Source of the DNA: a virus
Length of the DNA stretch: 25,938 nt
Direction: 5' to 3' (one strand)
Virus record (IMG/VR): IMGVR_UViG_3300032073_000214
Location: 1-25,938 of that record
Shown: positions 3,397-23,714 of the stretch, one piece after another
Layout: every line of letters starts with the position of its first letter
Numbering within the stretch: position 1 is the first letter of the stretch
The notes under the pieces: generated by a model
Database searches by the model: none
The model's input: only the letters and a program-made list of their open reading frames with translations
What the model was told of the DNA's origin: nothing
Made by a program: the position numbers and the translations under genes

Positions 3397-4416
3397 ATGA
3401 GTAATTATATTGATTCAAAATACCTTCATCTTCTATCTTCCCAGCTAGATCAATTCAAGCGGAAGAATGATAACCTATACAACTTCCGATGCCCTTATTG
3501 CATGGACTCTCAGACGAATCTGAATAAGGCTCGTGGATATGTCTTTGTTCGAGAAAGCAGTTACATATATAAATGTCATAACTGTGGAAAGGGTGCGAGT
3601 ATTAGCAACCTTATCAAGCATGTTAATCCACAGCTACACAAACAATACATCATGGAGCGATTCAAAGACGGCAATCACAAGTCATCAAACACTGCAGTCA
3701 AAACAAAGACAGAGTTTCGTCTAAAGAAAAAAGCAAATTATATGAAGACACCTCTTGGTAAGTTGAAGAAAATATCTCAGCTTCCAGAAGATCATATCGC
3801 GAAACAATATATCCAGAGTCGCGGAATACCAACAAATTACCACTACAAACTTTTTTATGCTCCTAAATTCTATGAGTTTGTTAATGAATGTGAGAAAGGT
3901 AAGATACCTAACATTCAAAAAGACGAACCAAGAATAGTCATACCATTTATTGATAAGTCTGATAATCTGATTGGCTTTCAAGGAAGGGCATTAGGTGATT
4001 CAAAGTTAAAGTATGTCACAATAATGCTTGATGAACAGTCGCCAAAGATATTTGGATTAGATACAGTTGATTTTCGCAAACCTGTCTATGTAGTCGAAGG
4101 TCCAATTGATAGTATGTTTATTGATAACGCAATTGCTATGGCAGGTGCAGATGTGAGTGGCTTAGATTCATTCAAAGCTGAGTTCATTTTTATCTATGAT
4201 AATGAGCCACGAAGTAAAGAGATTGTCAAGCGTATTGAAAAAACGATAGAACAAAAACATTCTATTGCTTTGTTTCCAAATGGCACAAAAGAAAAAGATA
4301 TAAATGACATGGTACTTTCTGGTAAGTGTGTCGATGAAATCCGAAAGATTATAAGTATTAACACCTTTAAGGGATTATCTGCGAAGGTAAAATTGAGTGA
4401 GTGGAGAAGAGTTTAA
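3397..4416 (+). CDS. 61: DNA primase, T4 gp61-like
   Basis: Makes RNA primers for lagging-strand synthesis together with the replicative helicase. The 339-residue protein begins with a zinc-binding domain (CPYC at 32-35, CHNC at 60-63) including the NKARGY segment also seen in T4 gp61. A Toprim-type catalytic core follows, with VVEGPIDSMF (the conserved Glu) and an acidic strand FIYDNEP. Length matches T4 gp61 (about 340). ATG 3397 gives MSNYIDSKY and fits the family. An in-frame TTG at 3382 is rejected because it lies within the promoter -10 region. The stop overlaps the next ATG. Confidence 0.9.
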   Translation: MSNYIDSKYLHLLSSQLDQFKRKNDNLYNFRCPYCMDSQTNLNKARGYVFVRESSYIYKCHNCGKGASISNLIKHVNPQLHKQYIMERFKDGNHKSSNTAVKTKTEFRLKKKANYMKTPLGKLKKISQLPEDHIAKQYIQSRGIPTNYHYKLFYAPKFYEFVNECEKGKIPNIQKDEPRIVIPFIDKSDNLIGFQGRALGDSKLKYVTIMLDEQSPKIFGLDTVDFRKPVYVVEGPIDSMFIDNAIAMAGADVSGLDSFKAEFIFIYDNEPRSKEIVKRIEKTIEQKHSIALFPNGTKEKDINDMVLSGKCVDEIRKIISINTFKGLSAKVKLSEWRRV

Positions 4417-5093
4417 TGAATGTAAAGTTAGTGTCATATTCGGCAGCAGTAGATGGATTGTTTGGTGATAATGAGAATCCAGACCTATTAGAAATGATTG
4501 CTTATTGTGCGAGGGTATCTAATCCTTCCAATCAGCTTAATAGTGAAACATCAGAAAAGTTAGTCAAATATCTAATCAAGCACCAACACTGGTCGCCATT
4601 AGAGATGGTCAACGCTTGCCTGATGATAGACACAACAAGAGATATTGCACATCAAATAGTGCGACATCGTTCATTCTCTTTTCAAGAGTTTAGTCAAAGA
4701 TATGCACAGCCTGAAGAAATGGGATATCCGTTTGTTATTCGTGATGCAAGATTACAAGACGATAAGAATAGACAGAATAGCGTTGAGACTGAAGATGAAC
4801 ATTTAAAACGAGAGTGGTATGCTAAACAAAAAAGAGTTATCAATTCTGCTCAAGATGCATATCATTGGGCTATTAATAATGGTATAGCTAAAGAACAAGC
4901 AAGAGCTGTTTTGCCAGAAGGTCTTACTAAAACAAGACTATATATGAATGGTACATTGAGAAGCTGGATACATTATATTGACTTGCGTGCAGCTAATGGA
5001 ACACAAAAAGAACACATGGAAATTGCTCGCGAGTGCGCATGCGCAATAGCTGAAATATTCCCCATGACCAATTCACTAATAGAACAACAATAA
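4416..5093 (+). CDS. thyX: Flavin-dependent thymidylate synthase ThyX
   Basis: Converts dUMP to dTMP using methylene-tetrahydrofolate and FAD/NADPH. The ThyX signature RHRx7S is complete at residues 83-93 (RHRSFSFQEFS, then QRY). The C-terminal half carries LPEGLTKTRLYMNGTLRSW, a segment that binds dUMP and FAD in this family, and the Arg/Glu-rich end (HMEIARECA). Length 225 is normal. ATG 4416 overlaps the primase stop and has GGAGAAG upstream; a GTG at 4401 is in frame but inside primase. It sits directly before nrdA, so dTMP and dNDP reduction are probably co-expressed. T4 itself uses the unrelated ThyA type. Confidence 0.93.
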   Translation: MNVKLVSYSAAVDGLFGDNENPDLLEMIAYCARVSNPSNQLNSETSEKLVKYLIKHQHWSPLEMVNACLMIDTTRDIAHQIVRHRSFSFQEFSQRYAQPEEMGYPFVIRDARLQDDKNRQNSVETEDEHLKREWYAKQKRVINSAQDAYHWAINNGIAKEQARAVLPEGLTKTRLYMNGTLRSWIHYIDLRAANGTQKEHMEIARECACAIAEIFPMTNSLIEQQ

Positions 5094-5104
5094 GGTTATA
5101 TAAC

Positions 5105-6886
5105 ATGTTTGGTTTACCCAGAAATCATTTGGGAGTTAAGATTGACCCCAGCAAAGACAAGAACATGACAGAACAAGCTGTCAAACTTTTGAAAGATTAT
5201 TATTGTAGAAGTAATGAAACCACCCCCCAAGAAGCATTTGCTCGAGCTGCAGTTGCCTTTTCAGCAGGAGATAAAAAATTAGCACAAAGAATTTACAATG
5301 CTGTCTCTGACGGATGGTTTATGTTTTCTTCACCCATCCTTTCTAATGCACCAATCAAAGGAGAAAAAGTTAAATCATTACCCATCTCTTGTTTCTTGAC
5401 ATATGTCCCAGATACATTAGAAGGGCTTATAGACCACACTGCTGAGTTGCGTTGGTTGTCAGTTAAAGGTGGTGGCGTTGGTGGACATTGGTCAGATGTT
5501 AGATCTGTTTCAGATGTAGCTCCTGGACCAATGCCATTTTTACACACTGTAGATAGTGATATGACTGCCTATAGACAAGGAAAGACTCGTAAAGGCTCAT
5601 ACGCTTCCTATATGGACATCTCTCATCCAGATATTGTAGAGTTTATAAACATGCGAATACCAACTGGTGATGTGAATCGCAAGTGTTTAAATCTACACCA
5701 TGCTGTGAATCTTACTGATGCCTTTATGGAAGCTGTGGAGAATAATGAAGATTGGGATTTAAAAGATCCAAATGAAGATAGTGTCCGTGATACTATTAAA
5801 GCAAGAAAGTTGTGGGAACTTATTTTAGAAACACGCTACAGAACTGGCGAGCCATATCTAAACTTTATTGATACAGCAAACAATGCATTGCCACAACAAC
5901 AAAAAGATTTGGGTCTTAAGATTCATGGTTCAAACTTATGTAATGAGATACACCTAGTAACAAATGAAGAACGCAGTGCTGTATGCTGTCTATCTTCACT
6001 AAACTTGGAGAAATATGATGAATGGAAAGATACAACAGTTGTTGCTGATGTTATCCGTTTTCTCGATAATGTCTTGCAGTTCTTTATCGACCACGCAGGA
6101 TCAGAAATCGAAAGAGCAAGATTCTCTGCTATGCGGGAGCGATCGCTTGGTCTTGGAGCGATGGGATATCATGCATATCTCCAGAAGCACAGGATTGAAT
6201 TTGAATCTGAAACTGCGATGTCAAGAAATAGAGAAATCTTCAGAGACATCAAAGAGCGAGCAGAAGAAGAAACACTCTTAATGGGTGAAGAACGAGGTGA
6301 AGCACCAGACATGATTGGTTCAGGCAAAAGAAATGCACATCTACTTGCCATTGCACCAAATGCTAATAGCTCTTTGATAGGTGGAACATCTCCATCTATC
6401 GAGCCATGGAAAGCAAATGCATTTACATCACGCACAAGAGCTGGCTCACACTTAACTAAAAACAAATACCTTGAAGAAGAATTAAAAATACTTGGAATGA
6501 ATACTGATGAAGTTTGGTCTTCAATTATTACAAGCGGTGGTTCAGTTCAACATTTAGATTTTCTTTCTAAACATATGAAGTCTGTATTTAAAACTGCTAT
6601 TGAGATAGATCAAGATATTGTGGTGAAGCAAGCTGGCGATAGACAAAAGTGGCTCTGTCAAGGGCAATCACTAAACATCTTTTTCCCAGCAGGTGCTACT
6701 AAAGAATACCTACATAAAGTACATTACAATGCATGGCTTTATGGAGCAAAAGGTTTATATTATCTAAGAACAGAAACATCAAATAAGGCTGAGAATGTCT
6801 CACAGAAAATAGCAAGAGATAGATTATCAGAATTTAACGAAAACAAAGCTGACACTCAAGATGAGTGTGTAGCATGTCAAGGCTAG
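5105..6886 (+). CDS. nrdA: Class I ribonucleotide reductase, large subunit NrdA (no ATP-cone)
   Basis: Reduces ribonucleoside diphosphates to deoxy forms using a radical from NrdB. All catalytic elements are visible: Cys96 (PISCFL) and Cys294 (AVCCLSSLN) as the redox pair, the NLCNE triad (Asn277, Cys279, Glu281), the radical-transfer pair Tyr552-Tyr553 (GLYYLRT), and a C-terminal CVAC (588-591) that would be re-reduced by glutaredoxin. At 593 residues it is about 165 shorter than E. coli NrdA (761). The N-terminus begins near the catalytic domain, so the ATP-cone that gives overall activity control is missing, a common state in phages. The nrdB fusion follows 10 bases later. Confidence 0.93.
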   Translation: MFGLPRNHLGVKIDPSKDKNMTEQAVKLLKDYYCRSNETTPQEAFARAAVAFSAGDKKLAQRIYNAVSDGWFMFSSPILSNAPIKGEKVKSLPISCFLTYVPDTLEGLIDHTAELRWLSVKGGGVGGHWSDVRSVSDVAPGPMPFLHTVDSDMTAYRQGKTRKGSYASYMDISHPDIVEFINMRIPTGDVNRKCLNLHHAVNLTDAFMEAVENNEDWDLKDPNEDSVRDTIKARKLWELILETRYRTGEPYLNFIDTANNALPQQQKDLGLKIHGSNLCNEIHLVTNEERSAVCCLSSLNLEKYDEWKDTTVVADVIRFLDNVLQFFIDHAGSEIERARFSAMRERSLGLGAMGYHAYLQKHRIEFESETAMSRNREIFRDIKERAEEETLLMGEERGEAPDMIGSGKRNAHLLAIAPNANSSLIGGTSPSIEPWKANAFTSRTRAGSHLTKNKYLEEELKILGMNTDEVWSSIITSGGSVQHLDFLSKHMKSVFKTAIEIDQDIVVKQAGDRQKWLCQGQSLNIFFPAGATKEYLHKVHYNAWLYGAKGLYYLRTETSNKAENVSQKIARDRLSEFNENKADTQDECVACQG

Positions 6887-6896
6887 GAGAATAAAA

Positions 6897-8099
6897 TTGG
6901 ATGTATTAATATACAGCAAAAGCAATTGCCCATTTTGTGTTAAGGCAAAGTATTGGTTTGAAACACATGGTTATCCTGTTCGTGAAGTGAAGTTAGATAA
7001 TAATGAACAGCGTTTGGCGTTTTATCAAAAACTACCAAATGCAAGATCTGTTCCTCAGATCTTTATTGATGATAAACACATTGGGACATATGATGATCTT
7101 ATGAAGATCGCAGATACTCTTGTTAAGAAAGTTGGAGGTTTGCTTGAGTTTTCTGAAACATACAAACCATTTCACTATCCATGGGCTGTAGAAATTACTA
7201 CAAGACATGAGAAAGCACACTGGATTGAAGATGAGATTGATTTGTCTGAAGATGTTACTGATTGGAAAGGTGGAAAGATTACTGAAGTCGAGAAAGATTA
7301 CATCACAAATATACTTAGATTGTTTACTCAATCAGATGTTGCAGTTGGACAAAATTACTATGATAACTTTGTTCCTAAATTTAAGAACAATGAAGTTCGT
7401 AATATGCTTGGATCATTTGCTGCACGAGAGGGCATTCATCAAAGAGCATATGCATTATTAAACGAGACTCTTGGTCTTTCAGATAGTGAATACCATGCAT
7501 TCTTAGAGTACAGTGAAATGGCAGACAAGATTGATTTTATGATGGATGCTGATCCATCAACCATGCGTGGTCTTGGTCTGTCAATAGCAAAGTCTGTATT
7601 TAATGAAGGTGTTGCTTTATTTGCTTCATTTGTTATGTTATTAAACTTTCAGCGGTTTGGAAAGATGAAAGGTATGGGTAAAGTTGTTGAGTGGTCAATA
7701 CGAGATGAGTCTATCCATGTTGAAGGTAATGCTAAATTATTCAAAGCATTTTGCGCAGAGCATCCGCGTATTGTAGACGAAGATTTTAAGAAAGATATAT
7801 ATGAAATAGCAAGACAAGCTGTGAAGCTGGAAGATAAATTTATTGATCTAGCGTACAAGATGGGTGAGGTTGAAGGGCTTGATTCATCAGAGGTTAAACA
7901 GTATATCCGCTATATAACAGACAGAAGATTGTTACAGCTTGGACTGAAAACAAACTTCAAAGTCAAAGAAAATCCGCTCCCATGGTTAGAGTGGGTATTG
8001 AATGGGGCAGACCATACAAACTTCTTTGAGAACCGTGTTACTGAATATGAAGTTGCAGGATTAACTGGCAACTGGGAAAATGCTTACGGAGCAGCATGA
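6897..8099 (+). CDS. nrdB: Glutaredoxin-NrdB fusion: class I RNR small subunit with N-terminal Grx
   Basis: A 400-residue two-domain protein. Residues 1-75 are a glutaredoxin: CPFC at 11-14, the cis-Pro loop SVPQIFI (51-57) and GTYDDL. From about 85 onward is an NrdB four-helix ferritin-like domain with every metal ligand expected by comparison with E. coli R2: Asp115, Glu178, His181, Glu237, Glu271 and His274. The radical tyrosine position is Tyr185 (GIHQRAY). It would supply the tyrosyl radical to NrdA and, through the Grx domain, probably the reducing electrons too. The start is TTG with AGGAG seven bases upstream (6885-6889); no in-frame ATG precedes the Grx domain. A similar fusion has been described in a bacterial RNR (Facklamia ignava, from memory). 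Confidence 0.92.
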   Translation: MDVLIYSKSNCPFCVKAKYWFETHGYPVREVKLDNNEQRLAFYQKLPNARSVPQIFIDDKHIGTYDDLMKIADTLVKKVGGLLEFSETYKPFHYPWAVEITTRHEKAHWIEDEIDLSEDVTDWKGGKITEVEKDYITNILRLFTQSDVAVGQNYYDNFVPKFKNNEVRNMLGSFAAREGIHQRAYALLNETLGLSDSEYHAFLEYSEMADKIDFMMDADPSTMRGLGLSIAKSVFNEGVALFASFVMLLNFQRFGKMKGMGKVVEWSIRDESIHVEGNAKLFKAFCAEHPRIVDEDFKKDIYEIARQAVKLEDKFIDLAYKMGEVEGLDSSEVKQYIRYITDRRLLQLGLKTNFKVKENPLPWLEWVLNGADHTNFFENRVTEYEVAGLTGNWENAYGAA

Positions 8100-8800: not shown

Positions 8801-9523
8801 ATGAAAGATATTATGTATGGCGATAAGCCTAGCAACTCAGTTGTTTTTGCTGCATGTGATAGTAAATATTTCATGGATCACTCAGTGCCGTTTATCATGT
8901 CATCTTGTGAGGCTGGTTTTAAAACACACATACATGTGGTAAATCCGACAGAAGAAGTTCATTCACTATCCTCTCTTATTAATAAATTGGTAGATGGAGA
9001 TATCACATATTCATTTGAAGACAGAGATGTGACACCTCTAGACAGCGAGAGTGAAAGAGCATACTATGCATGTCTGCGTTTTATTGCCTTACCTGAAATA
9101 CTTTCTTCAGCTAAAGAAGTTCTTGTCTTAGATATTGATTGTTTAATAATGAAAGAGTTTGACTTCCCTGAGACACCTTGTGCTTATTTCCCAAGACCAA
9201 ATGAACAAAGCGAAGAAATGAAAGTTGCAGCTGGAGCAGTATACTTGACCAGCGATGCTTTAAATGTAGCACAAGCAATACAACAAACAATTGGTGGTAT
9301 GCAACTGAGGTGGTTTGTAGATCAAATAGCTTTATCACACATATTTAATCAAGTGCCAGAAAATTTTATAACTAAGTTTGATAATCAGTTTATGGACTGG
9401 GAGTTTGAAGAAGGGACATGTATTTGGACAGGTAAAGGTCCAAGAAAGTATGACAACCCAAAATATGTTTCTAGAAAAAATTACTATGTAAATCGTTTTA
9501 ACGATATGAGATCAAGATGTTAA
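8801..9523 (+). CDS. GT-A type glycosyltransferase, GT8-like (copy A)
   Basis: A 240-residue protein beginning with SVVFAACDSKYF, a first beta strand typical of nucleotide-sugar-binding GT-A folds. The metal-binding DxD follows at 111-113 (LVLDIDCLI). Late in the sequence it has VDQIALSHIF, a conserved acidic element of GT8-like enzymes. It would transfer a sugar from a nucleotide-sugar to an unknown acceptor. The start has AAGG six bases upstream. It is a paralogue of the fourth gene in the run (10993-11658): both open with xxFAxCDxxxF, share THIHVVNPT / VHLHIINPT at the same position (43-50), and then the DI-x strand. It overlaps the next gene by 7 bases. Confidence 0.72.
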   Translation: MKDIMYGDKPSNSVVFAACDSKYFMDHSVPFIMSSCEAGFKTHIHVVNPTEEVHSLSSLINKLVDGDITYSFEDRDVTPLDSESERAYYACLRFIALPEILSSAKEVLVLDIDCLIMKEFDFPETPCAYFPRPNEQSEEMKVAAGAVYLTSDALNVAQAIQQTIGGMQLRWFVDQIALSHIFNQVPENFITKFDNQFMDWEFEEGTCIWTGKGPRKYDNPKYVSRKNYYVNRFNDMRSRC

Positions 9524-10266
9524 CAATAATCGCAATGAAGTGGAACAAGCAGAGTAGTGGTGAGACAATACCATCACAAGACATTATATGTTATGGCAAA
9601 GAGCATGTAATCAGACATTTCAATATGTGTAATAAATGGATAAGCGGTGAGTTTAAATATGTGTTTTATACAGATGAAATATTAGATGGATTGCCTTCTG
9701 AAATAGAACAAAGACCACTATTTCCAACATTCACAAAACATTTCCATAGAGGTGGTTGTTACCACAGACTGTTTATGTTTAGTAAAGAGTTTTGCGATGC
9801 TCATGCTCCATTTGTTTCTATGGATTTGGATATGGTCATAACAGATAATATAACATCATTGTTTGATATCAGCCAACCATTTATTTACTATAAGATGAGA
9901 GGTGGTGATGGTAGAGGTTGGAGAATGAACAATGGAATGTTCTTCCTTAATACAGACGCTTTTGATCCTTTATGGAAAGCATTCGATAGTGAGCCAGAAA
10001 AGTTTATAGATAATCGTAAAGGAGCAGGAACAGATCAAGGGATAACAAATGCTATAATCGGCAACTTTGAAGAGTTGGCGTGCTGGCAACAAGGTTCACT
10101 TGGTCCAGGAATCTGGGATTTGCGTCAAGACTTTGATGAACAAGGTCGCATTGATCTGCCGAAAGGTTGTAAGATTGTTATGTGTCCTGGACCACGAGAC
10201 CCATCTCTTAAAGATTATTCTATCAAATATCCTTGGATAAAAAAATATTATGAGGAAATACAATGA
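9517..10266 (+). CDS. GT-A type glycosyltransferase-like protein
   Basis: A 249-residue protein with a DxD motif at 103-105 (VSMDLDMVI), preceded by a region with RGGCYHRLFMF and followed by WRMNNGMFFLNT and GTDQGITNAI, all usual positions in GT8/GT32-like enzymes (the last one carries the conserved Asp). It probably transfers a sugar from a nucleotide-sugar in the cytoplasm; donor and acceptor are unknown. The N-terminus (MLTIIAMKWNK) leads directly into the first strand, so the start is sound. It overlaps its neighbours on both sides (7 bases before, ATGA after), fitting one translationally coupled set. Confidence 0.7.
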   Translation: MLTIIAMKWNKQSSGETIPSQDIICYGKEHVIRHFNMCNKWISGEFKYVFYTDEILDGLPSEIEQRPLFPTFTKHFHRGGCYHRLFMFSKEFCDAHAPFVSMDLDMVITDNITSLFDISQPFIYYKMRGGDGRGWRMNNGMFFLNTDAFDPLWKAFDSEPEKFIDNRKGAGTDQGITNAIIGNFEELACWQQGSLGPGIWDLRQDFDEQGRIDLPKGCKIVMCPGPRDPSLKDYSIKYPWIKKYYEEIQ

Positions 10267-10991
10267 GTGAAAAAGTGAAAATATTTATTGGTTCATCTTC
10301 TAATGGAGAAGATGCTTTAATTGAAATGGCATATGAGTACACTCTGCGCAAGAATACTGATCGTGATGTTGAGATTGTTTGGATGCGACAGACAAAAGAA
10401 GAAAAATCTTTTTGGCGTGGATTCAATGACTTTAGATGGTCAACACCATTCTCAGGATTCCGTTGGGCAATACCTGAATATTGCAACTTTGAAGGTCGAG
10501 CAATATACACTGATTGTGATATGCTAAACTTTCATGACATAGGTGAATTGTTTGATATGGAAATACCTGAAGACAAATGGTTGTTGGCTCGTGATGGTAA
10601 GAGATTTGGTGGTAAAGAGTTTTGTGTTATGTTATTTGATTGTGCCAAGTTTAAAGGTAACATGCCCCTCAAGGAAGAATGGAAAGGTGTTGAGACAGCC
10701 CACCACCAATTCATTGATAACTTTGTTCGTAACGGCACAGTTGGTGATCTAGATCCTGCATGGAATAGTCATGATGGTGATGTAGAACCATTCAAGCAGT
10801 TACACTACACCCACATGCCAACACAACCATGGAAACCAAAGTGGTTTACAGGAACACCGCAGAAACATCCAAAACCTGAGCTGTCAAAGTTGTTTTGGGA
10901 TATGGTAGAAGAAGCAGAAAGAAATGGATATAAGGTAAATGACTATATACCTAGCAAACAAAATTATCATTATGGAATTATAGGAAAATAA
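10263..10991 (+). CDS. GT-A type glycosyltransferase-like protein
   Basis: A 242-residue protein. The first strand VKIFIGSSSNGED is followed by WAIPEYCNFEGRAIYTDCDML, with the DxD at 84-86 (DCD), and later HQFIDNFV and YTHMPTQPW. The layout fits GT8-like enzymes that use a metal-bound nucleotide-sugar. It is not an obvious close paralogue of the adjacent three genes beyond the shared fold. Start ATG 10263 has GAGG upstream and overlaps the preceding stop (ATGA). Substrate is unknown. Confidence 0.68.
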   Translation: MSEKVKIFIGSSSNGEDALIEMAYEYTLRKNTDRDVEIVWMRQTKEEKSFWRGFNDFRWSTPFSGFRWAIPEYCNFEGRAIYTDCDMLNFHDIGELFDMEIPEDKWLLARDGKRFGGKEFCVMLFDCAKFKGNMPLKEEWKGVETAHHQFIDNFVRNGTVGDLDPAWNSHDGDVEPFKQLHYTHMPTQPWKPKWFTGTPQKHPKPELSKLFWDMVEEAERNGYKVNDYIPSKQNYHYGIIGK

Positions 10992-10992
10992 T

Positions 10993-11658
10993 ATGTTACC
11001 AACTTGGGAAGGTGCACCACCAGAAAGTCCAGTCACATTTGCTGTATGTGATGCAGCAGAATTTATTGCTCATGGCGCAGCATTTGTCAGATCAGCTTAT
11101 AGAAGTAAAGTTGATGTGCACTTACACATCATCAACCCAACATCAAGATGCACTCAAGGAATATATCGTTTGATGGGGCAAGGCGGAAGTCATTTTTCTG
11201 TGACTAGAGAAACCACAACAGACGATCCTTATGTAGTTAAGATTAGAGCATTAAACTGTTTGTTATCATATGGGCATCCAATTTTAATGGTCGATATCCA
11301 AACTTTGATAAATAAAGATTTTAAATATCCTAAAACTCACTGTTGCTTCTATAAAAAGGATGGTGTCGTTAGTAAAGATATTTTATATGCGAGTAAAATA
11401 TTTCAACCGCATTTGAATAGATTTTTTGTAGGTTATGTGATGGCAGGGAATGGCGGTGATAGATATTTTCAATCTTTTGTGAATGATGTTGATAACCTAC
11501 ATAAAGGTGATAACATATTTTTTGATAATTCAATGATGAATGTTGTGCCTGATGATAATTCATCAATGTGGTTAAAATCTGAAGATAAGAGATATGTAGA
11601 CGAGAAAAAAAGTTATGGATTATTGTTGTCCACAAACAGAGGAGGGAGGCAAGTATAA
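10993..11658 (+). CDS. Glycosyltransferase paralogue with altered DxD (copy B)
   Basis: A 221-residue protein that lines up with the first gene of the run (8801-9523): PVTFAVCDAAEF with SVVFAACDSKYF, VHLHIINPT with THIHVVNPT, and LMVDIQTLINKDFKYP with LVLDIDCLIMKEFDFP. The second Asp of DxD is Gln here (DIQ, 101-103), so metal and nucleotide-sugar binding is probably weakened or lost. The protein is also about 20 residues shorter and lacks a clear equivalent of VDQIALSHIF (an FDNSMMNVV is present). It may be a non-catalytic partner or a decaying duplicate. It starts one base after the preceding stop and ends just before the small gene at 11661. Confidence 0.68.
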   Translation: MLPTWEGAPPESPVTFAVCDAAEFIAHGAAFVRSAYRSKVDVHLHIINPTSRCTQGIYRLMGQGGSHFSVTRETTTDDPYVVKIRALNCLLSYGHPILMVDIQTLINKDFKYPKTHCCFYKKDGVVSKDILYASKIFQPHLNRFFVGYVMAGNGGDRYFQSFVNDVDNLHKGDNIFFDNSMMNVVPDDNSSMWLKSEDKRYVDEKKSYGLLLSTNRGGRQV

Positions 11659-11903: not shown

Positions 11904-12167
11904 ATGAGAATGTTAAATGATAGTATATTGGTTCTTCTCCAAGAAGAAGAAGAGACTAATGTAACTGAAGGTGGTATTATCTTAACATCAAAAGCTGATG
12001 ATGATCGCTCATCTAAGCCAGCAACGGTAATTGCTGTTGGACCACACGCTAGTGGAATCAGACCAGATGATGTTGTGTATTTGAGCTGGAACAACTCTAT
12101 TCCAATTACAGTCGATGGTATGAAACTGAACATCGTTCCTGCTGAGGATATCAAGGCTATTCTATAG
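11904..12167 (+). CDS. GroES-like co-chaperonin (gp31-type)
   Basis: An 87-residue protein with the GroES fold pattern: MLNDSILVLLQEEEE at the N-terminus, a mobile-loop region NVTEGGIILTS (compare GGIVLT in GroES), ATVIAVGPHASG, DDVVYLSW and the closing strand IVPAEDIKAIL. In T4 the equivalent gp31 replaces GroES on host GroEL so that the large capsid protein can fold. The mobile-loop triplet IIL suggests that it docks to GroEL. It is slightly shorter than GroES (97). AAAGGA lies upstream; the second Met (11910) is an alternative start. It is co-directional with the small gene before it and a membrane protein after it. Confidence 0.85.
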   Translation: MRMLNDSILVLLQEEEETNVTEGGIILTSKADDDRSSKPATVIAVGPHASGIRPDDVVYLSWNNSIPITVDGMKLNIVPAEDIKAIL

Positions 12168-13363: not shown

Positions 13364-14389
13364 GTGGTCGCTAAAACTAGAGCAGGACATAAATCTTTGG
13401 TCAATATCAAAGAATCAGAAAAGATTGATCTCTCAGCAGTTGGTCCAAGTTCAGATGGAACATATGCTGATGCAAAAGGTGGCACTGAAATGATGGCTGA
13501 AAGAATATCAGCTATTGTTTCAGATCTTGGTCTTGATGATCAGTTCAATATAATTCACTCTAGAGTTCGTGAGTTATCAAAAGATAAAAAGAACATACTT
13601 GTTCTTCATGACCTTTGGAGCGACCCTGAAGTCGAGTTTTTAAAAGATCCAAAAGAAAGAGCTAAGTTTGCCAAATTAGTTTTTGTTAGCAATCAACAGT
13701 TCCAGACATACCATTTAGCTTTGGGTGTACCATACTCTGAAGCATATATTATGCGAAATGCGATTGATCCAATTAATCCAAAAGAGCCTAAACCAAATCC
13801 GAATGAACGAATTAATTTAATCTATCACACAACACCACATCGTGGTCTTGAGTTGTTAGTTCCTTGCTTTGAGGAGTTGGCTAGAATACATGGTGATCTT
13901 ATTCATCTAGATGTATACTCATCATTCAATGCATATGGTTGGGGACAAAGAGACATACCATACAAGCCACTGTTTAATAAAATAGAACAGCACCCACAGA
14001 TGACATATCATGGGTATCAACCGAACAATATTGTTCGTGATGCCTTAGAAAAAGCACACATATTTGCTTATCCCAATATATGGCAAGAAACATCATGTAT
14101 CGCAGTAATGGAAGCAATGAGTGCAGGTGTTGATGTTGTTTGTCCAAACCATGCAGCTTTATATGAAACAACTGCTGGGTTTGCTAATATGTATCAGTAT
14201 CATGAAGATCCAAATCAACATGCAGCAGTCTTCATTAATCAATTACATAATTCAATTCTATACTGCAAAGAGGGTGCTCATTTACCTAGAATAAATCAGG
14301 CTAAGAGTTACACTGATAATCTTTATTCATGGGATTACCGTAGACATGAATGGGAACACTTTCTAAAAGGGTTGACTTCAGCCCAGTAA
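13364..14389 (+). CDS. GT-B glycosyltransferase, GT4-like
   Basis: A 341-residue protein with the GT4 signature: a GGTE motif in the N-terminal domain (39-42), the linker strand NLIYHTTPHRGLELL (151-165), YHGYQPN, and the C-terminal E-x7-E (Glu242 and Glu250) in WQETSCIAVMEAMSAGVDVVCP. It should move a sugar from a nucleotide-sugar to an unknown acceptor, with retention of configuration. The start is GTG immediately after the previous stop, with AAGG about 10 bases upstream. It is unrelated in fold to the four GT-A genes upstream, so the phage encodes at least two kinds of glycosyltransferase. Its last codons contain a promoter. Confidence 0.83.
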   Translation: MVAKTRAGHKSLVNIKESEKIDLSAVGPSSDGTYADAKGGTEMMAERISAIVSDLGLDDQFNIIHSRVRELSKDKKNILVLHDLWSDPEVEFLKDPKERAKFAKLVFVSNQQFQTYHLALGVPYSEAYIMRNAIDPINPKEPKPNPNERINLIYHTTPHRGLELLVPCFEELARIHGDLIHLDVYSSFNAYGWGQRDIPYKPLFNKIEQHPQMTYHGYQPNNIVRDALEKAHIFAYPNIWQETSCIAVMEAMSAGVDVVCPNHAALYETTAGFANMYQYHEDPNQHAAVFINQLHNSILYCKEGAHLPRINQAKSYTDNLYSWDYRRHEWEHFLKGLTSAQ

Positions 14390-18575: not shown

Positions 18576-18869
18576 ATGAATAAACTTTCGATAGTGTTTT
18601 TATTATTTCTAGCATCATTCGCCACAGCAGGTGATCCAGAAGCAGGCAAAGATCGATCTTCTGCTTGCGGTGGTTGTCATGGTACTTATGGCATTAGTAA
18701 TAGTCCTTTTTTTCCCAACCTTGCGGGACAGAAAGAAATGTATCTAGTGTCTGCCCTTAAACAGTATCGTGATGGAATACGAAATAACCCTATGATGTCT
18801 TTATATGTAAAAGATTTATCAGACGGTGACATCGCGAATATAGCTTCTTATTATTCAAACTTAAAATAG
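18576..18869 (+). CDS. Exported c-type cytochrome
   Basis: A 97-residue precursor with a Sec signal peptide (about 1-18, NKLSIVFLLFLASFATAG) and a mature domain of about 79 residues bearing one covalent-heme motif CGGCH (31-35). RNNPMMSLYVKDLSDGDIANIASYYSNL near the C-terminus supplies the axial Met (73 or 74) and the end helix typical of cytochromes c4/c553. It should be a periplasmic single-heme electron carrier and would need the host heme-attachment (Ccm or similar) machinery. The start has AGGA upstream and the ATATTATG context. It is an apparent auxiliary metabolic gene: no phage replication or structure role is obvious. Confidence 0.88.
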   Translation: MNKLSIVFLLFLASFATAGDPEAGKDRSSACGGCHGTYGISNSPFFPNLAGQKEMYLVSALKQYRDGIRNNPMMSLYVKDLSDGDIANIASYYSNLK

Positions 18870-19031: not shown

Positions 19032-19859
19032 ATGTTTTTAACTGGAAATGCTCTGAATCAAAAAAATGATAATAGGTTTTTGGGATGCGACAATAAAGAA
19101 AATTATGAAAAGAACTTTAAAGAGAACTGGTGGTCAAGGAGATGGAAAGATGTTGATATATCTTATGTCTTAAACAGTGACGGATATAGGACAAAAGAAT
19201 TTAATGAAGTTGATTGGGATAATGCTGTTGTCATTTTAGGTGATTCTAATACAATGGGTTTGGGATTGCCGATTGAACAAGTAGTATGTTCAGTACTAGA
19301 AAAAGAAATAAATCGACCAGTAGTGAACATTTCTGTTGCTGGTTCATCTAATATGTTTATTACATATAATACGGTAAGGTTGATAGAAAATTTTAAACCA
19401 TATGCTGTTATTAATATGTGGTCAGCACCGTCAAGAATAATGACATTTAACAATCATATAATTTCTCATTGGGCTTGGAGGTCGCATGGAACTCCAGGTG
19501 CACAGCCTTTGTTAGAGTCTTGGAGTTTTAGTGTAAAAAAACTCAAAGCAAAAAGGATATTAACTAAGTCGCCAACTGTATATACATCAGGAGATGCAGC
19601 ACCAGAGTGGTTAGAAGAACACAATACAACACGCCAGAGTGATGAGTTGAAGAGAGCATGTAGAGTGATGTGTAGAGACATTCGCCATTTAGAGTATGCT
19701 CCTAAATTCTGGAACCTTAATGAGTGGGCAACTGAAATTCCTACACCCAACAATGTTTTTGGAACATCAAGAGATTGTCTTCATGCTAATGGTAAGTTTC
19801 ATAAGAAATGGGCAGAAATAATAAAAGAGGATTTTATTAAAAATGATTGGTTGGATTAA
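19032..19859 (+). CDS. SGNH/GDSL-type hydrolase-like protein
   Basis: A 275-residue protein with the SGNH blocks: VVILGDSNTMGLGL (nucleophile Ser72), VNISVAGSSNMF (block II Gly and nearby Asn), and a C-terminal DCLHANG (Asp248, His251) for the catalytic pair. Family members remove acyl groups (often acetyl) from sugars or lipids, or act as O-acyltransferase partners. There is no signal peptide, so the enzyme would act in the cytoplasm, perhaps on a nucleotide-sugar or on a phage product. It lies in front of a carbamoyltransferase, another sugar-decorating enzyme, which favours a glycan role (inference). It overlaps the next small ORF by 17 bases. Confidence 0.72.
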   Translation: MFLTGNALNQKNDNRFLGCDNKENYEKNFKENWWSRRWKDVDISYVLNSDGYRTKEFNEVDWDNAVVILGDSNTMGLGLPIEQVVCSVLEKEINRPVVNISVAGSSNMFITYNTVRLIENFKPYAVINMWSAPSRIMTFNNHIISHWAWRSHGTPGAQPLLESWSFSVKKLKAKRILTKSPTVYTSGDAAPEWLEEHNTTRQSDELKRACRVMCRDIRHLEYAPKFWNLNEWATEIPTPNNVFGTSRDCLHANGKFHKKWAEIIKEDFIKNDWLD

Positions 19860-19941
19860 AGAAAAATATCAGTTGTGGAAAGCCAATAGAGAATTCAAAA
19901 AAAAGATGCGTGATAAAAAAGATCCGTACACATATGATTAA
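19843..19941 (+). CDS. 32-residue basic ORF bridging two genes
   Basis: MIGWIKEKYQLWKANREFKKKM, then RDKKDPYTYD. It overlaps the SGNH gene by 17 bases and the carbamoyltransferase by 8, using a third frame. AGAGG lies upstream. The Trp/Lys-rich amphipathic head and DPxxYD end resemble a tiny protein I recall from other T4-like marine phages. It explains the apparent N-terminal extension of the next frame and may couple translation of its neighbours. Function unknown. Confidence 0.55.
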   Translation: MIGWIKEKYQLWKANREFKKKMRDKKDPYTYD

Positions 19942-21364
19942 ATGGGGTGTTTCGGCTGGAACACACGATGCTTCTCTTGCTGTTGTTAAAGACAATAATA
20001 TTCTTTTTGCCAGCAATAGCGAAAGATATAGTGGTGTTAAGAATGATCCAGACTTATGTCAATCTCTGATTAATGATGCGTTAGAGTTTGGTGAACCAGA
20101 TACAATATACTGGTATGAAAACCCTCACAAAAAAGCGTTGCGTAAACTAATCGCTGGACAATCTAACATTTGGTCATCACCAAAGAAGTATCTGAAGAAA
20201 TACAATATTAGTGGAAAGATAATAATAGGGAATCATCATGAGAGTCATGCTTTTGCTGGGTTTGCTACTTCTACATTCAACAAGTCTGCTGCTCTTGTTA
20301 TTGATGCTGTCGGTGAGTTTACAACCACATCTATTAGTTCTTTTTCTAACATATCTGGCAATATAACAAATAAAACTTTATACAAAAAAAGATACCCACA
20401 TTCATTAGGTTTATTCTATACGGCAATCACTTCGCGTGTTGGGTTGAAACCGAATGAAGATGAATACATTCTTATGGGAATGTCTGCGTATGGCAAACCA
20501 TTATATGTTAATGAGATGAGAAAACTTTTAGAGTGTGGATATAATTTTCATCAAGGATGTAAGAACCTATTGCCTGATGCAGATCACTTTGATTTGGCAA
20601 GCTCTGCTCAGCAGATATATGAAGAAGAATTTATTAAGCTGTTATACAAAACAAAAGAATTAACTGGCGAAGACAATCTTGTAATTATGGGTGGGTGTGC
20701 TTTAAATTGTTTAGCCAACAGACACGCAAAAAAACTATTCGACAATGTTTGGATAATGCCCAACCCAAGCGATGCTGGTAGTTCGATTGGAGCTATCGCC
20801 TCAAAAGAAAAAAAGATGTTAGAGTGGAATAATCCATATCTCGGAAAGAACATTGATGGAGAATACCCAGTTGACGAAGCTATTGATGAATTGATTAGAA
20901 ATAAAATTGTCGGTATTGCTAATGGTCGTGCTGAGTTTGGTCCAAGAGCATTAGGAAACAGAAGTCTACTTGCTGATCCGACTGGAAAGGAAATGAAAGA
21001 ACTTGTGAACAAGATTAAAAAAAGACAAGAGTTTAGACCATTTGCTCCAGTGATACTTCAGTCAGAAGTTCATAATTACTTTCATGTTGATGAAGGATTT
21101 GAAAGTCCATATATGCAATATGTTGTGATGGCAAAAGACCCAGAAAAGTTTCCAGCCATAACTCATTATGATGGAACAAGCCGAGTTCAGACAGTCACTA
21201 AAGAACAGCATGATGGTTTGTGGAGATTACTCACCAAATATCATGAAAAGACTGGGATTCCTATGTTGCTGAATACTTCACTGAATATCAAAGGATATCC
21301 GATTGCCAACACTAAAGTCGATGCGGAGCTATTCGAGGAAGTCTATGGGGTTAAAATCGTATAA
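19934..21364 (+). CDS. NodU/CmcH-family carbamoyltransferase
   Basis: A 476-residue protein with the two-domain layout of the NodU/TobZ family. The N-terminal Kae1-like ATPase-fold domain begins WGVSAGTHDASLAVV and has the metal site HHESHA (101-106) and GGCALNC (253-259). The C-terminal YrdC-like part has EFGPRALGNRSLLADP (334-349) and EFRPFAPVIL (366-375). Such enzymes use carbamoyl phosphate and ATP to carbamoylate a hydroxyl, usually on a sugar. At 476 residues it is somewhat shorter than bacterial members (about 550-600). ATG 19934 begins the conserved domain; an in-frame start at 19847 runs through the 32-residue ORF and is rejected. Acceptor is unknown. Confidence 0.87.
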   Translation: MIKWGVSAGTHDASLAVVKDNNILFASNSERYSGVKNDPDLCQSLINDALEFGEPDTIYWYENPHKKALRKLIAGQSNIWSSPKKYLKKYNISGKIIIGNHHESHAFAGFATSTFNKSAALVIDAVGEFTTTSISSFSNISGNITNKTLYKKRYPHSLGLFYTAITSRVGLKPNEDEYILMGMSAYGKPLYVNEMRKLLECGYNFHQGCKNLLPDADHFDLASSAQQIYEEEFIKLLYKTKELTGEDNLVIMGGCALNCLANRHAKKLFDNVWIMPNPSDAGSSIGAIASKEKKMLEWNNPYLGKNIDGEYPVDEAIDELIRNKIVGIANGRAEFGPRALGNRSLLADPTGKEMKELVNKIKKRQEFRPFAPVILQSEVHNYFHVDEGFESPYMQYVVMAKDPEKFPAITHYDGTSRVQTVTKEQHDGLWRLLTKYHEKTGIPMLLNTSLNIKGYPIANTKVDAELFEEVYGVKIV

Positions 21365-23441: not shown

Positions 23442-23714
23442 ATGATTTACGAAATATATGGAAGTGCCTCATGCGGATATTGCACTCAAGCCAAAGCATT
23501 ACTTGAAGCAAGAGATTTAGAGTTTAAATACTTTGATCTCGCTGATGTGAGTGGTGATAAACAAACTGAGCTCATGAATATTGCTGGTCATCAATTTAGA
23601 ACTGTGCCACAAATCTTCATTGAGCAACATGATGAAAGGTTTGAGAATGAAAGAGTTCGTAAAAAAACCTATGTTGGTGGATTCACCGAACTGTCAAGGT
23701 CTTTAAAAGGCTAG
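23442..23714 (+). CDS. Glutaredoxin
   Basis: A 90-residue thiol-disulfide carrier with active site CGYC (11-14), the cis-Pro loop TVPQIFI (54-60) and YVGGFTEL. It can donate electrons to ribonucleotide reductase or reduce other proteins. A loop insert (EQHDERFENERVRKKT) lies before the last strand. It is distinct from the Grx domain fused to NrdB, so this phage has two glutaredoxins. The stop TAG overlaps its neighbour's ribosome site (GGCTAGGAGA), the same arrangement as at the end of nrdA. Confidence 0.88.
   Translation: MIYEIYGSASCGYCTQAKALLEARDLEFKYFDLADVSGDKQTELMNIAGHQFRTVPQIFIEQHDERFENERVRKKTYVGGFTELSRSLKG

Follow-up and report, generated by a model that had tools for sequence, protein, structure and literature searches.

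The window analysed here comprises the 25,938 nucleotides of the virus record IMGVR_UViG_3300032073_000214 (IMG/VR, positions 1 to 25,938) and contains a marine phage gene in which a glutaredoxin (Grx) domain is fused to the N-terminus of NrdB, a subunit of ribonucleotide reductase (RNR), which supplies the precursors of DNA. With a probability of roughly 0.8, the product can be read by analogy as a class I NrdB with a tethered dithiol Grx, which would provide RNR with a built-in, glutathione (GSH)-dependent reductant. We prefer this reading because the protein belongs to a known family, because there is a precedent in Facklamia ignava, and because the adjoining gene encodes an NrdA that is free of Grx and carries a CxxC motif. 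That the phage may bring its own RNR reductant had been suggested in an earlier sequence-only reading, and it is the explanation that the sequence and its analogues support best.

The fusion gene and its translation

6897-8099, plus strand: grx-nrdB fusion gene, TTG start, TGA stop, 400 amino acids, recognised with Pfam and NCBIfam models
6885-6889, plus strand: AGGAG, a Shine-Dalgarno-like motif that overlaps the nrdA stop codon

The TTG start proposed in the sequence-only reading is credible, with AGGAG preceding the codon at a spacing of 7 nt. The start codon is located at the same aligned position in all of 80 other loci (79 viral contigs and the Methylophilales phage Melnitz), of which 59 use ATG and 21 use TTG. 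The frame that joins Grx to NrdB is intact in each of these 80 loci, so that the domain order sought in viral databases, as the same reading had advised, was indeed recovered. A Shine-Dalgarno-like motif precedes the TTG or ATG codon in 15 of 15 sampled relatives. The Grx-NrdB fusion is a real gene and is very probably translated as one unit, because the frame is intact, the start position is shared and the Shine-Dalgarno motif is found at this start only. Judged from these sequences, the fusion protein is probably a working one.

Glutaredoxin and NrdB domains

6903-7082, plus strand: Glutaredoxin domain, residues 3-62, PF00462, E 1.1e-15
6927-6938, plus strand: CPFC, residues 11-14 of the fusion
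7047-7055, plus strand: SVP, residues 51-53, within SVPQIFI at residues 51-57
7128-7172, plus strand: linker predicted to be disordered, residues 78-92, pLDDT below 50 (AlphaFold2)
7158-7976, plus strand: NrdB domain, residues 88-360, PF00268 (Ribonuc_red_sm), E 1.1e-72

The Grx part has the features of a dithiol glutaredoxin, namely a CPxC site, a T/S-V-P loop, the glycine and aspartate of the GSH site and a PF00462 score above the cut-off. Both cysteines (Cys11 and Cys14), Lys8, the SVP loop and Gly63 are invariant in 50 of 50 aligned sequences, and the GSH-site aspartate D67 is kept in 44 of the 50. The NrdB part has the six metal ligands of a class I NrdB (R2), D115, E178, H181, E237, E271 and H274, and the radical tyrosine Y185 adjoining the metal site, all assigned from sequence by the usual class I motif pattern. 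The six ligands, Tyr185 and the C-terminal Tyr384 do not vary among the 50 aligned sequences. The continuous frame with CPFC, SVPQIFI, the metal ligands and Tyr185, as described from the sequence, is thus confirmed by Pfam and by this invariance.

Median pairwise dN/dS values were about 0.11 for Grx, 0.16 for the linker and 0.05 for NrdB, which are rough estimates because synonymous sites are close to saturation; at the sequence level, the Grx domain is clearly held by purifying selection. The AlphaFold2 model has a moderate mean pLDDT of 70, with a confident fold for the Grx block (pLDDT 82-90), and is uninformative on how Grx reaches NrdA. The best PDB match of the modelled NrdB fold is 9dws, the RNR beta subunit of Francisella hispaniensis.

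Relationship to a known protein family

The Grx-NrdB fusion is not new: it belongs to a named family, and proteins of this kind have already been tested in a bacterium. The window protein matches NF009398 (PRK12759.1), a curated NCBIfam family named "bifunctional glutaredoxin/ribonucleoside-diphosphate reductase subunit beta", with 683.9 bits against a curated cut-off of 649, the match extending over residues 2-398 and over positions 3-409 of the 410-position profile. All 20 members of an alignment of phage and Francisella proteins match the same family at E <= 1e-100. Grx::NrdB has been reported from every Francisella, from Allofrancisella and from 24 viruses (Rozman Grinberg 2018, PMC6187632). 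For F. ignava, it was shown that GSH supports RNR activity through the fused Grx, predominantly by a dithiol mechanism, and that the GSH-dependent activity of the fusion requires Cys12; the authors judged it to be a separate fusion event (PMC6187632). On that judgement, the F. ignava biochemistry proves the principle and serves as an analogy for the phage clade. This biochemically tested precedent had been correctly named in the sequence-only reading (PMC6187632), which nevertheless missed the Francisella and viral fusions described in the same paper as well as the NF009398 family.

In an NrdB tree of 32 rows, of the kind proposed in the sequence-only reading, the fused proteins of phages and Francisella group together in a single clade with a support of 95/97, apart from the unfused phage NrdBs. 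The window NrdB groups with the Francisella NrdB (95/97), whose subclass has been reported as NrdBk, a placement made from the tree. An independent fusion in the phage group of the window is unsupported, because the fused NrdBs of phages and Francisella cluster as one clade; the Grx domain by itself has too few residues to tell a single fusion from repeated ones. From these sequence relationships, it is likely that the nrdA/grx-nrdB unit was exchanged long ago between phages and the Francisella line. A search with NF009398 of 274 genomes of the Francisella class gave three matches above the cut-off, including the Francisella query genome, and a fourth, weaker match to an NrdB with a C-terminal Grx.

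NrdA, gene neighbourhood and the separate glutaredoxin

5105-6886, plus strand: nrdA, class I RNR large subunit, 593 amino acids, PF02867/PF00317
6860-6883, plus strand: NrdA C-terminal redox tail DECVACQG, with cysteine codons at 6866-6868 and 6875-6877
23442-23714, plus strand: separate glutaredoxin of a different Grx lineage, 90 amino acids, PF00462, E 5.4e-13

The fusion gene is the last of three closely spaced genes in the order thyX (4401-5093), nrdA and grx-nrdB. NrdA scores 788.9 bits against NCBIfam NF006577 (cut-off 620) and is 74-75% identical to Francisella NrdA and 73% to Melnitz NrdA; neither a Grx domain nor an ATP-cone match was found in the window NrdA. In class I RNRs, the C-terminal CxxC pair of NrdA is reduced by Grx or thioredoxin, and the CxxC in the tail of the window NrdA is expected to be the target of Grx. 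The terminal CxxC is present, and NrdA is without Grx, in 75 of the 75 relatives in which nrdA is visible.

The separate glutaredoxin noticed from the sequence at 23442 is real. Its identity to the fused Grx is only 28%, which fits different jobs. Among six larger records from relatives, a second Grx was identified above the Pfam cut-off in four and below the threshold in one. The remaining record, of 133 kb and perhaps incomplete, shows the fused Grx only. The earlier suggestion that the fused copy is dedicated to RNR is thus less well supported than that of a phage-borne reductant.

Glutaredoxin domains at other positions in RNRs

A second architecture came to light among the nearest related RNRs whose NrdB is without Grx. 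The NrdA of phage C48C1, of Delftia phage PhiW-14 and of Acinetobacter phage nACB2 has a Grx domain inserted after the catalytic core and ahead of the terminal CxxC, which stays at the very C-terminus of the protein.

L086, 776-2770: NrdA with internal Grx, C48C1
L085, 671-2806: NrdA with internal Grx, PhiW-14
L087, 164-2782: NrdA with internal Grx, nACB2
L112-L191: NrdA with internal Grx, 80 IMG/VR loci

The last set was obtained in a scan with the C48C1 NrdA; in 78 of the 78 loci with both genes visible, NrdA has the order core, Grx and CxxC, and NrdB is without Grx. The clean split between phages with Grx on NrdB and phages with Grx in NrdA is partly an effect of ascertainment, because a separate query found each set. 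Two viruses with Grx::NrdA have been noted before (PMC6187632). We regard the NrdA-insert architecture as the more interesting side result, and it merits a separate study.

Further arrangements were observed. The NrdB of Stenotrophomonas phage ANB28 has Grx at its C-terminus (L090, 1505-2722), as has an NrdB encoded by a bacterium of the Francisella class (L111, frame from 1393), and phage PH357 has Grx at the N-terminus of NrdA. The NrdB of PhiW-14 (L085, 2849-3889) is annotated as 'bifunctional glutaredoxin/RNR beta' yet is without Grx, while the neighbouring NrdA has one; this annotation is a mis-transferred name. In nACB2, the NrdA also contains an intein-like insert near the active-site cysteine region (CLAGDTKVIVADGRKP...HRVALVSN). 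A tentative generalization, to which we give somewhat less than an even chance, is a 'one Grx per enzyme' rule for phage RNRs, with Grx gained by different routes, at the N- or C-terminus of NrdB, at the N-terminus of NrdA or as an insert ahead of the NrdA CxxC, the NrdB N-terminus route being shared with Francisella by old exchange. If so, phages would generally secure their dNTP supply during replication by tethering the reductant.

A proposed tethered reductant and the alternatives

In the proposed mechanism, NrdB would act as the radical-generating subunit, with the dithiol Grx joined to its N-terminus via a flexible linker. For each turnover of NrdA, electrons would be supplied by the CxxC pair on its C-terminal tail; the tethered Grx would reduce this pair through Cys11 and Cys14, and glutathione would then recharge Grx. 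With Grx fused to NrdB, the phage RNR would be equipped with a reductase in a constant one-to-one ratio, and with Grx fed by glutathione, the phage would be independent of host thioredoxin levels. The single Grx beside the same CxxC inside the NrdA of related phages points to the same job. For the window phage and its host, we infer the activity and the partner of Grx-NrdB by analogy with these systems.

The attachment of Grx to NrdB and not to NrdA, together with the second, free Grx at 23442 in the window phage and likewise in several relatives, would also suit a protein in which the fused Grx mainly serves NrdB, by loading or repairing the metal-tyrosyl site or by deglutathionylating the complex, while host thioredoxin or the free phage Grx reduces NrdA. 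We consider this unlikely, since the active site is of the dithiol CPFC type with retained GSH-site residues and not of the monothiol CGFS type, which is linked to iron-sulphur work. Moreover, Grx adjoins the NrdA CxxC in related phages, and in F. ignava the fused protein acts directly as the reductant of RNR (PMC6187632).

Two other explanations were considered and rejected. An in-frame Met69, which follows the Grx active site and is shared by 48 of 50 aligned sequences, could give rise to NrdB alone, with the Grx part seldom translated. However, a Shine-Dalgarno-like motif was found before the Met69 codon in none of the 15 sampled relatives that all have one at the TTG or ATG start, and the Grx part is under purifying selection; Met69 was rejected as the main start, and translation of NrdB alone is very improbable. 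The chance that an assembly or sequencing artefact joins two genes, a concern raised in the sequence-only reading, is negligible, given that the 80 other loci share the frame and that independent contigs and cultured Melnitz phages carry the intact fusion, as do Francisella genomes, which match over the full length.

With this fusion, a large group of marine phages is added to the RNRs of a known, probably self-reducing kind and is linked to the Francisella enzyme. Together with the NrdA-insert phages, they offer natural variants for testing how close Grx has to be to the NrdA tail in order to drive dNTP synthesis.

Other genes in the window

A c-type cytochrome gene at 18576-18869 encodes 97 amino acids with a CGGCH motif and a leader-like N-terminus (PF00034, E 2.7e-6). 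Neither a search of 50,697 phage records nor PHROGs gave a match, and the gene is possibly a new auxiliary metabolic gene. A Nol-like carbamoyltransferase was identified at 19847-21364 (phrog_1601, E 8.2e-104), and sugar-transferase-like ORFs, judged by eye only, are situated in the same region (8801-11658 and 13364-14389). The window also encodes a GroES-like phage co-chaperonin at 11904-12167 (phrog_3188, E 1.6e-12).

Comparison with known systems

The closest isolate is Melnitz EXVC044M, of which gene 41 is 82.9% identical to the window protein over residues 1-397. The two share a Kyanoviridae-type phage setting, under which family Melnitz is filed, and a CxxC-tailed NrdA; the earlier description of the phage as T4-like fits this placement, as seen from a record of only 25.9 kb. 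Melnitz differs in its ATG start and in a small ORF between nrdA and grx-nrdB. The annotation of its fusion is limited to RNR small chain or hypothetical, and the word glutaredoxin is absent from the Melnitz paper.

The Francisella Grx-NrdB has the same domain order as the phage protein, with an identity of about 72-73% from end to end, and nrdA is likewise followed by grx-nrdB. Unlike the phage copy, it is a cellular gene, has a Grx domain with some 8-11 inserted residues and is separated from nrdA by an extra grx. This separate gene (about 3998-4265 in L091-L094) encodes a protein that, in F. philomiragia, shares 49% identity with the fused Grx. Its position between nrdA and grx-nrdB is likely to picture how the fusion arose.

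The F. ignava protein resembles the phage protein in the N-terminal dithiol Grx on NrdB, for which reduction of RNR with GSH has been shown biochemically in that species. It differs in belonging to subclass NrdBi, in the ATP-cone that separates Grx from NrdB, in its Mn cofactor and in having nrdA downstream (PMC6187632). Finally, C48C1, PhiW-14 and nACB2 are like the window phage in that one Grx is built into a related phage RNR, whereas their Grx is placed in NrdA before the terminal CxxC and their NrdB is without it.
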